This document shows, piece by piece, positions 32,263 through 47,813 of a DNA stretch of 64,000 bases. The notes beneath the pieces are model-generated. The model made no database searches and was not told the origin of the DNA. It saw only the letters and a program-made list of their open reading frames with translations. Source of the DNA: Marivita sp. (GTDB lineage: Bacteria > Pseudomonadota > Alphaproteobacteria > Rhodobacterales > Rhodobacteraceae). The DNA lies in assembly GCF_020055635.1 (NCBI RefSeq), contig NZ_JAIPUT010000004.1:1-64000 (forward strand), in the 5' to 3' direction. Numbering within the stretch: position 1 is the stretch's first letter; each line of letters opens with the position of its first letter. Both the position numbers and the translations under genes were made by a program.

Positions 32263-33825
32263 TCAGGTCACATCCCGATACGAGATTTCCTTGACATCCT
32301 TGCCGGTCTTGCCGCGCCGCACGATCAGGCGGTTGAGCGCGTGGATATAGGCCTTTGCGGACGCCACAACCGTATCGGTGTCCGCCGACTGGCCGGTGGC
32401 GATCATGCCGTCCTCTTCGAGCCGAACGCTGACGGTGGCCTGCGCGTCGGTGCCCTCGGTCACGGCGTGCACTTGGTACAACTGCAACCGCGCCTTGTTC
32501 GGGTGCAGCATGCGGATCGCCTTGAAGGTCGCATCCACCGGGCCGTCACCTTCGCTGACCGCCGATTTGTCTTCGCCGTTGATCTCCATCTCCAGCGTCG
32601 CTTCGGCAGGGCCGCCAGTGCCGCAGACCACCTTGAGGTTCACCAGCTGAAGCGCATCGTCGCCTTCAGTCGTCGCGGTGACAAGCGCAAGGATATCGTC
32701 GTCGAACACCTCTTTCTTGCGGTCAGCGAGATCCTTGAACCGCACAAAGATGTCCTTGAGCTGGTTGTCACCCACCTCGGTGCCCAATTCCCTGAGCTTG
32801 GCGCGCAGCGCGGCGCGGCCCGAATGCTTGCCCAGCGGCAACGACGTCCCCGCAAGCCCCACATCCTCTGGGCGCATGATCTCGAAGGTCTCGGAATTCT
32901 TGAGCATGCCGTCCTGGTGGATGCCAGACTCGTGCGCAAAGGCGTTCTTGCCGACGATGGCCTTGTTGAACTGCACCGCAAAGCCCGACACGGTCGCGAC
33001 GCGGCGCGAGATATGCATGATCTTCCTGGTATCGATACCGGTGTGGAACGGCATGATGTCGTTGCGCACCTTGAGCGCCATCACCACCTCTTCGAGCGCG
33101 GTGTTGCCGGCGCGTTCGCCAAGGCCGTTGATCGTGCATTCGATCTGTCGTGCGCCGCCTTCGACCGCGGCCAGCGCGTTGGCGGTCGCCATGCCAAGAT
33201 CGTTGTGGCAATGGGTGGCGAACACCACCTCGTCGGCCCCCGGCACGGTGTCGATCAGGCGACGGATCAAATCCGCGCTTTCCACCGGCGCAGTATACCC
33301 CACGGTGTCGGGAATGTTGATTGTCGTGGCGCCCGCCTTGATGGCGATCTCGACCACGCGGCAAAGATAATCCCACTCTGTGCGCGTCGCATCCATCGGC
33401 GACCATTGCACGTTGTCGCACAGGTTGCGCGCATGGGTCACGGTCTGTTCGATCCGGTCGGCCATCTCGTCCTGCGTGAGGTTCGGAATGGCGCGGTGCA
33501 GCGGCGAGGTGCCGATGAAGGTGTGGATGCGTGGCTGCTTGGCGTGTTTGACCGCCTCCCAGCAGCGGTCGATATCGGGCAGTTGCGCCCGCGCCAAGCC
33601 GCAGATCACAGCCGACTTCGACCGCTGCGCGATCTCGCTCACGGCGCGGAAATCACCTTCGGAGGCGATCGGGAAACCAGCCTCGATGATGTCCACACCC
33701 ATGTCGTCCAGAAGCTCGGCAATCTCGAGCTTCTCGTCATGGGTCATGGTCGCGCCGGGGGATTGTTCGCCGTCGCGCAATGTGGTGTCGAAGATCACCA
33801 CGCGGTTCTTGTCAGTGCTTGTCAT
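32263..33825 (-). CDS. leuA: 2-isopropylmalate synthase
   Basis: The 520-residue enzyme catalyses the first committed step of leucine synthesis. The catalytic barrel shows IFDTTLRDGEQSPGATM at the amino end, the metal motif THCHNDLGMA and NGLGERAGNT. The carboxyl third (after residue 390) is the leucine-binding LeuA allosteric domain. ATG 33825 is the family start; a nine-codon extension upstream lacks a ribosome site. It is preceded by a leucine-rich leader peptide at 33907-33993, suggesting attenuation in addition to feedback inhibition. Confidence 0.95.
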   Translation of the reverse strand: MTSTDKNRVVIFDTTLRDGEQSPGATMTHDEKLEIAELLDDMGVDIIEAGFPIASEGDFRAVSEIAQRSKSAVICGLARAQLPDIDRCWEAVKHAKQPRIHTFIGTSPLHRAIPNLTQDEMADRIEQTVTHARNLCDNVQWSPMDATRTEWDYLCRVVEIAIKAGATTINIPDTVGYTAPVESADLIRRLIDTVPGADEVVFATHCHNDLGMATANALAAVEGGARQIECTINGLGERAGNTALEEVVMALKVRNDIMPFHTGIDTRKIMHISRRVATVSGFAVQFNKAIVGKNAFAHESGIHQDGMLKNSETFEIMRPEDVGLAGTSLPLGKHSGRAALRAKLRELGTEVGDNQLKDIFVRFKDLADRKKEVFDDDILALVTATTEGDDALQLVNLKVVCGTGGPAEATLEMEINGEDKSAVSEGDGPVDATFKAIRMLHPNKARLQLYQVHAVTEGTDAQATVSVRLEEDGMIATGQSADTDTVVASAKAYIHALNRLIVRRGKTGKDVKEISYRDVT

Positions 33826-33858
33826 GGTCAGGGTCTTTCTTGTCTTGTCCAAATCCGT

Positions 33859-33913
33859 CGGCGCGAAACGGTCATCCTCTGAGCGGTCGCGCCGGTTGGG
33901 CCGCGCTCAGAGG
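33859..33913 (-). promoter_or_regulatory. candidate leuA attenuator with two mutually exclusive hairpins
   Basis: Helix 1 pairs two 10-base arms, plus-strand 33876-33885 with 33904-33913; its 5' arm on the RNA contains the last Leu codon and stop of the leader peptide. Helix 2 pairs two 8-base arms, 33859-33866 with 33887-33894. One arm of each lies in the loop of the other, so they cannot form together as simple helices. No strong T-run follows, so termination could be Rho-dependent or the control could be translational. Confidence 0.6.
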
Positions 33914-33993
33914 CGGATTAGGAGAAGACGGGTGGCCAGCGCAAGAGGCGCGCGAAAGCGCGGCAGGATTGCGGTATGAGCCAAACGTGTCAT
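33907..33993 (-). CDS. leucine-rich leader peptide of leuA (28 aa)
   Basis: ATG at 33993 opens a 28-codon frame ending at 33907. It encodes eight leucines, and its end reads Arg-Leu-Leu-Leu-Ile-Arg-Leu-stop, using CTT, CTC and CTA in succession; CTA is rare in such high-GC genomes. This is the hallmark of a transcription-attenuation leader for branched-chain amino-acid genes. It lies 81 bases upstream of leuA on the same strand. No ribosome site is seen, but TATAGT at 34001-34006 (minus strand) places a possible start of transcription close to the ATG, so a leaderless peptide is plausible. Confidence 0.72.
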   Translation of the reverse strand: MTRLAHTAILPRFRAPLALATRLLLIRL

Positions 33994-34105
33994 GAACGCG
34001 ACTATACGCGGCAAATCCCAAAAGAAAAGTCATCACAGAAAAAAAGACGCCCCCGGTACCGGGAACGTCCTGCGCTTCTTCGGTTCAGAAATATCCCGGG
34101 GGTTT

Positions 34106-47612: not shown

Positions 47613-47654
47613 CCCCTTGAGGCCGCTTCGAAAACGGTCTAGCGTTTGTCACAT

Positions 47655-47813
47655 CTGCGATGGGAGAACCGGTTCGACCGGTGCCGAAGGAGCAACCGCC
47701 CCCGGAAACTCTCAGGCCGAAGGACCGTCGCGGACATAGACTCTGGAGAGATTTCGGGCCTGACCCGGAACGCCGAAGGGATAACGATCTCAGGCGAAAG
47801 GACAGAGGGGGCA
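47655..47813 (+). promoter_or_regulatory. tandem glycine riboswitch upstream of gcvT
   Basis: Two consecutive glycine aptamers are readable. The first has GTGCCGAAGGAGCAA, ACTCTCAGGCCGAAGGACC and the typical ACTCTGGAGAG junction (47663-47750). The second has CGCCGAAGGGATAACG and TCTCAGGCGAAAGGACAGA (47754-47812). The pair lies 84 bases before the gcvT start and should switch on the glycine cleavage genes when glycine is high. No terminator or anti-terminator was resolved; sequestration of the ribosome site is possible. Confidence 0.93.

Follow-up and report, generated by a model that had tools for sequence, protein, structure and literature searches.

Upstream of leuA, the window (the whole 64,000-nucleotide stretch of Marivita sp. 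DNA analysed here) contains a leucine-rich leader ORF and three helices, designated S1, S2 and P1, which constitute an alphaproteobacterial variant of the LEU-element kind; this design is known from actinobacteria and is widespread in Alphaproteobacteria. We consider it probable that this LEU-type element functions in cis as a leucine sensor with translation initiation as its target. Comparison of sequences among relatives supports the conservation of the element, the placement of the leader stop codon, covariation of S1, pairing of P1 and its tracking of the first gene of the operon, and, in Rhodobacterales, pairing of S2. A constrained reading frame and a base stem which tracks the first gene, across much of Alphaproteobacteria, argue for a ribosome-based translational switch.

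Leader ORF and helices in the window

The leader peptide (MTRLAHTAILPRFRAPLALATRLLLIRL; ATG at 33993, TGA at 33909-33907) is encoded by an ORF whose 3' end reads CTT CTC CTA ATC CGC CTC TGA and whose stop lies 81 bases from the leuA ATG (Table 1). The sequence thus confirmed the original prediction of a 28-codon, Leu-rich minus-strand frame with consecutive CTT, CTC and CTA codons 81 bases before leuA, and the two perfect helices which it had placed downstream of the Leu codons (S1, 10 bp; S2, 8 bp) were found at the same coordinates, with the leader stop codon within the 5' arm of S1. Its claim that only one of these helices can form at a time did not hold, because the arms of S1 and S2 do not overlap and the two can coexist as an H-type pseudoknot instead of excluding each other. 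The element as first described is therefore real but larger, since a third helix, P1, had been overlooked. In P1, which was first seen by folding the leader, GTCTTCTCCTAATCCG pairs with CGGATTTGGACAAGAC at 14 of 16 positions. This helix adjoins S1 on one side, is one base from S2 on the other, lies 16 bases before the leuA ATG and stops 3 nt short of the weak Shine-Dalgarno (SD) sequence, which it leaves uncovered. The arms of S1, S2 and P1 are disjoint and share no bases.

Table 1. Features of the leuA leader region in the window
Feature	Position	Strand	Remark
Intrinsic terminator 3' of glyA	34044..34071	-	12-pair stem, 7 GC, T tail; sets glyA apart from the leuA unit
Likely -35 element TTTTCT	34023..34028	-	16-nt spacer; TTTTC or a near form recurs here in many Rhodobacterales relatives
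-10 element TATAGT	34001..34006	-	7 nt before leader ATG
Leader peptide ORF	33907..33993	-	28 codons + TGA; CTT CTC CTA close to 3' end
P1 5' arm GTCTTCTCCTAATCCG	33914..33929	-	the Leu codons themselves
S1 5' arm CCTCTGAGCG	33904..33913	-	leader stop codon inside
S2 5' arm CGGCGCGA	33887..33894	-	within S1 loop (pseudoknot)
S1 3' arm CGCTCAGAGG	33876..33885	-	pairs with 33904-33913
S2 3' arm TCGCGCCG	33859..33866	-	pairs with 33887-33894
P1 3' arm CGGATTTGGACAAGAC	33842..33857	-	ends at -17 from leuA ATG; 5' of leuA RBS
Weak Shine-Dalgarno-like AAAG of leuA	33835..33838	-	-13 to -10
leuA, 2-isopropylmalate synthase (TIGR00973 type)	32263..33825	-	ATG at 33825

Among 5000 dinucleotide shuffles of positions 33859-33993, a perfect stem of at least 10 bp arose in 49, and such a stem with a crossing stem of at least 7 bp in 5. 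The fold stability of the whole leader is unremarkable (z -1.06; 32 of 200 shuffles fold at least as well). A competing 8-bp stem (33957-33964/33900-33907), which overlaps S1, was rejected as weak and, by eye, not kept in relatives.

In the original prediction, this region had been read as a switch for transcription attenuation based on two alternative helices. On the minus strand between 33700 and 34250, the sole terminator-like site is located at 34071-34044, after glyA, and none was detected after the leader; the lack of a T-run after either helix, already pointed out in that prediction, was verified. With no terminator found and with compatible helices, the switch in that form is not supported. 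To classic terminator/antiterminator attenuation with S1 and S2 as the alternative helices we give hardly any credence: a Leu-rich leader does stand ahead of leuA, but S1 and S2 have no common bases and there is no T-run. Considering that P1 pairs near the RBS of the first gene, translation rather than transcription attenuation is indicated. Elsewhere in the window, a tandem pair of glycine riboswitch aptamers is present on the plus strand (47651-47807).

Distribution of the element

A leuA protein search provided the best 80 of at least 598 named loci, which were examined together with the genomes of 17 species of the genus, the window's own included. A Leu-rich leader with S1 over its stop was identified in 90 of 96 loci, five having none and one only a low-scoring match; in 6 of those 90, a cupin gene comes next and the leader precedes leuA by approximately 450-490 bases. 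A covariance model (R1), built on 58 Rhodobacterales sequences, matched all 196 of 196 Rhodobacterales genomes exactly once each (E up to 0.01). No Rfam family matched the element in this analysis, and R1 now supplies a model for it. In the 7 of these 196 genomes with both features listed, the R1 match is located less than 400 bases upstream of leuA. The match in the window's own genome corresponds to 33842-33933. Additional copies in this genome were considered and rejected, as R1 lists this match as a single copy, under filters that are stricter over 40 genomes and may lose weak ones.

A class-wide draw yielded a leuA match in 118 of 240 genomes, and the upstream DNA of 109 places was examined (29 + 80 loci). 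A strict locator, defined by Leu codons, stop and stem, identified the element in 60 of 107 alphaproteobacterial loci outside Rhodobacterales, versus 7 of 535 shuffles and 0 of 25 non-alphaproteobacterial loci; the corresponding counts for a loose locator were 68 of 107, 32 of 535 and 4 of 25, and presence in non-alphaproteobacterial Pseudomonadota was rejected on the counts for these 25 loci. Some of the alphaproteobacterial loci missed by the strict locator show the motif by eye and others show no trace of it, several of which have another gene directly before leuA. The alphaproteobacterial core reads CTTCGACTTAGGYG-CCCCTGA or CTTCTCCTTAGCCG-CCCCTGA.

Several rows were dropped from these sets, namely L002 and L003 (other genes), L071 (contig starting inside leuA), L011 (contig beginning 245 bases before leuA), L068 (no element, low score), L178 (spurious locator match) and, in some statistics, L172 and L100. 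Most copies from the window's genus were left out of the swap and codon statistics, the ten weakest leuA matches were left out of the class-wide set, and the 25 non-alphaproteobacterial loci exclude L269 and L270 (short contigs). Comparison with the Rfam leader families gave no match above the gathering score for the window and none at E up to 1 for 7 relatives. None of the matches listed in the open-licence literature describes a leuA leader of this kind from Alphaproteobacteria.

Constraint on the reading frame and choice of Leu codons

Counted from the first base of the last Leu codon, the leader stop comes after exactly 12 nt in 47 of 49 Rhodobacterales loci and 80 of 89 other alphaproteobacterial loci. 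It is TGA in all 49 Rhodobacterales leaders and TGA, TAG or TAA in the other Alphaproteobacteria. The Leu codons are unusual as well: CTA accounts for 20% of them in Rhodobacterales leaders versus 1.1% in leuA, and CTT for 34% versus 8% in Rhodobacterales and 62% versus 6% in other Alphaproteobacteria. The frame from leader stop to leuA varies (23/18/8 of 49 in Rhodobacterales; 39/26/24 of 89 in others), and because it is not fixed, a leader-leuA fusion or frameshift was ruled out. The same variation bears on a model of coupling or re-initiation, in which the leader would enhance leuA translation, with P1 and S1 drawing its stop codon towards the leuA start. P1 does set the leader end beside the leuA start, and re-initiation at leaders has been proposed in general (PMC4833913), but this explanation would have to accommodate the variable frame and gives no reason for the unusual Leu codons; we regard it as improbable.

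Covariation and swap tests of the helices

In a sequence-only alignment of 58 Rhodobacterales sequences (A1), 98.3% of the S1 cells and 81.1% of the S2 cells are paired. Cells of S1 and S2 changed on both sides numbered 22 versus a shuffled mean of 6.5 (58 sequences; 0 of 500 shuffles), whereas the count of pairs changed on both sides in A1 was less striking (5 versus 3.3; 40 of 500 shuffles). In 88 other Alphaproteobacteria, S1 has 72 both-changed cells versus 22.7 in shuffles (0 of 500). Two outliers, L163 (CCCCAAACGGT/ACCGTTTGGGG) and L198 (CCCAAAG/CTTTGGG), have most of the stem replaced. The leucine-linked leader control suggested in the original prediction is thus well supported by the retention of the Leu codons, the stop position and the stems, together with the covariation of S1 across the class; the Leu codons and covarying stems which it had proposed to look for in relatives were both kept (S1 class-wide).

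P1 and S2 were evaluated by a swap test, in which each leader is paired with its own partner or with that of another locus and relatedness is uncorrected. Under these conditions, P1 reached z 7.7 in Rhodobacterales (n=49) and 8.1 in others (n=88; 0 of 10000 each), and S2 reached z 3.9 in Rhodobacterales (0 of 10000) and 2.3 in others (134 of 10000). An earlier version of the test gave z 9.7 for P1 and 7.2 for S2 in 58 Rhodobacterales, and 2.2 for both in 21 other Alphaproteobacteria. The P1 score is also higher at the 5' UTR than at the coding-sequence start or upstream, both in Rhodobacterales (p 3e-7 and 5e-7; n=41) and in other Alphaproteobacteria (p 1e-3 and 3e-5; n=60 and 72). Single-sequence P1 z values are modest (means 1.33 and 1.12; above 2 in 27% and 32%), and several Bradyrhizobium loci have a P1 that is weak or in the wrong place. 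Of 113 loci having an SD match of at least 4 bases, near-identical genus copies being counted, only 39 have a P1 overlapping the SD.

By covariation or swap tests, all of them comparisons at the sequence level, S1 and P1 are supported class-wide and S2 in Rhodobacterales only; the pseudoknot as a class-wide feature was set aside as weakly supported, given the S2 swap z outside Rhodobacterales. These data also concern the possibility that a protein or small molecule binds the pseudoknot, a protein being what the discoverers of the actinobacterial element proposed. A compact pseudoknot with a base stem resembles a riboswitch or protein site (PMC1262725). However, the loop preceding S2 is variable in both sequence and length, the support for S2 beyond Rhodobacterales is weak, and the Leu codons and stop position are preserved as a reading frame, and we therefore consider such binding very improbable.

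P1 in operons with a cupin gene first

In eight loci, a gene of 117 or 118 amino acids lies between leader and leuA, which was assigned to cupins by Pfam (one tested). These loci (L010, L015, L017, L025, L040, L046, L100 and L251) are scattered over Rhodobacterales. In all eight operons, the P1 score is 15.5-27 near the cupin start versus 10.5-15.5 at the leuA start, the two regions searched differing somewhat in length. The P1 3' arm ends here between -9 and +3 of the cupin gene start. P1 thus tracks whichever gene opens the operon, and this behaviour speaks for control at translation initiation.

A possible mechanism

Ribosome stalling, the direction of control and its translational rather than transcriptional level are what we infer from the arrangement of the element. 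Transcription may begin at or next to the leader ATG, as judged from the position of the -10 element, and a ribosome would then translate the leader. When Leu-tRNA is ample, this ribosome would clear the Leu codons, terminate at the stop in S1 and leave, after which S1, the S2 pseudoknot and P1 could close and P1 would occupy the approach to the leuA RBS. When Leu-tRNA is scarce, the ribosome would wait on the Leu codons; since these codons are the 5' strand of P1, P1 could not form while it waits there, and leuA would be translated. For the same reason, the codon run would be both sensor and blocking strand.

In a folding model without pseudoknots, the leuA RBS was easier to open with a ribosome footprint over the Leu codons, the mean cost being 4.69 instead of 6.25 kcal/mol in 46 Rhodobacterales and 8.45 instead of 10.74 kcal/mol in 83 other Alphaproteobacteria; in the window, the cost was 3.60 instead of 4.73 kcal/mol. 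A control footprint 40 nt upstream gave mean costs of 6.13 kcal/mol in Rhodobacterales and 9.67 kcal/mol in others, and reductions of more than 1 kcal/mol were likewise seen with it in 12 of 46 and 34 of 83 loci.

Alternatively, control might be exerted by Rho-mediated transcription attenuation: with leucine present, leader and leuA start would be poorly translated and Rho would stop the polymerase in the leader or early leuA, which stalling would prevent. In its favour are the failure to find an intrinsic terminator, the potential of the leader to couple transcription to translation, and the proposal of Rho for cys leaders in Actinobacteria (PMC1262725); yet Rho alone leaves unexplained why P1 has its partner at the start of whichever gene is first, and we hold this account to be unlikely. 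The two readings are compatible, as Rho could act downstream of a translational switch.

Leader start and promoter

The original prediction had placed TATAGT just ahead of the leader ATG and had proposed a leaderless leader mRNA on this ground. The hexamer was confirmed, 7 nt before the ATG, and the leaderless mRNA is supported in Rhodobacterales by the spacing of the -10 element: 49 of 58 leaders carry a hexamer resembling a -10 element 6-9 nt ahead of the start codon (TATAGT itself in 24 of them) versus 12 of 1180 shuffled upstream sequences under the same rule, which requires a score of at least 5 with a start-codon bonus included and which was itself used to pick the leader start. TTTTC or a near form often occurs approximately 16 nt further upstream of the hexamer in Rhodobacterales. 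Outside this order, a -10-like site is seldom seen before the leader. A sigma-70 consensus scan did not list the TATAGT promoter, and its -35 match is poor. As judged from these sequence features, a leaderless leader mRNA in the window is likely.

At a constant distance from the leader start, codons 6-7 read CAT ATC or nearly so, even though the leader is variable in its middle part. CAT ATC occurs at offset 15 in 24 of the 58 Rhodobacterales leaders having a start, and the window has CAT ACC (33973-33978). They might serve as a site of pausing or a signal for initiation, or encode a peptide motif.

Relationship to known leader systems

The actinobacterial LEU element (Seliverstov 2005, PMC1262725) has been described with a Leu-run leader, a pseudoknot and a base stem between Leu codons and the leuA SD box, and with no terminator and no clear mechanism. 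Its position upstream of leuA, Leu-run leader, pseudoknot and described lack of a terminator are shared by the element in the window. As to the base stem, the Leu codons pair with the SD box itself in the LEU element and, through P1, with bases just 5' of the leuA ribosome-binding site in the window, where P1 ends at -17, 3 nt from a weak SD. A difference is the leader stop codon, which lies inside S1 in the alphaproteobacterial element. The type of leuA is also different (TIGR00973 in the window, TIGR00970 in Nocardia). The discoverers considered leader translation unlikely and favoured a protein limited to Actinobacteria, with a possible transposon origin of the element (PMC1262725). Mutations in the leuA leader of S. 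coelicolor had effects inconsistent with classical attenuation (cited in PMC1262725), and mutations of its Leu codons do not influence regulation according to the same source, which counts against the explanation that we favour. In S. lividans, LeuL1 (MRFGLLLLSCRGEGL) is reported to be leaderless and to have no typical terminator (PMC8079986). The literature cited for the actinobacterial LEU element offers no settled mechanism, and its alphaproteobacterial form is testable in easy hosts, e.g., Caulobacter and Cereibacter.

A Leu run with a GC-rich stem after it is present in five of eight actinobacterial leuA loci; the other three, from Streptomyces plasmids (L211, L212 and L217), showed no Leu leader. 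The core CTTCTTCTTAGCTGCC is common to Microbacterium L215 and the alphaproteobacterial L098, L099 and L162, and CTCCTTCTTAGCTGCC to Nonomuraea L296 and the alphaproteobacterial L137; the 13-base core CTTCTTAGCTGCC is present in 2 of the 5 actinobacterial leaders (2 of the 8 loci) and six alphaproteobacterial loci. The remaining three actinobacterial leaders (L213, L214 and L216) do not have these exact cores, and the base stem was clear by script in one (L215) of four actinobacterial leaders tested. In Sphingomonas L299, a core read by eye as CTTCGACTTATCCG precedes a leuA of the Nocardia kind (55% identity). The shared cores suggest possible common descent with the actinobacterial element. 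More broadly, and only tentatively, the LEU element might be an old translational amino-acid switch common to Alphaproteobacteria and Actinobacteria. In this view, the codons that sense the amino acid would themselves be the strand masking the beginning of the following gene, with CTT/CTC/CTA runs paired to AAGGA-type sites, and the stop codon would be placed in the clamp helix in Alphaproteobacteria; the ribosome would open the next gene directly, without terminator, protein or ligand, and the switch would track whichever gene is first and whichever LeuA type.

The gammaproteobacterial leu leader attenuator bears the name Leu_leader. As described for leuA in Shewanella, this attenuator has terminator and antiterminator stems (PMC2659441); a Leu-rich leader precedes leuA in both systems, but the element in the window has neither a terminator nor an Rfam match. 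In Sinorhizobium meliloti, trpL/peTrpL is likewise a leaderless leader ORF of an alphaproteobacterium, although its signal is tryptophan and it has been described as attenuating transcription, unlike the element in the window (PMC10117765). The uORFC-8-2 motif before cysS of Rhodobacterales is similarly an alphaproteobacterial uORF with codons of the sensed amino acid, but these are Cys codons and control of transcriptional read-through is presumed (PMC8632094).

Leu-rich upstream ORFs were also observed at other leuA genes. Three Rhizobiaceae loci (L218, L297 and L300) have a Nocardia-kind leuA, by similarity, with a Leu-run leader of another form (SLLLLGLxRGCRV), and GAAGAGAAG stands immediately before leuA in L218 and L300. 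Nonomuraea possesses a second and diverged leuA-like gene (L213), which is likewise preceded by a Leu-run leader with a GC-rich hairpin. Two betaproteobacterial leuA loci (L219 and L298, from Burkholderia and Cupriavidus) have Leu-rich upstream ORFs which may be further leaders.
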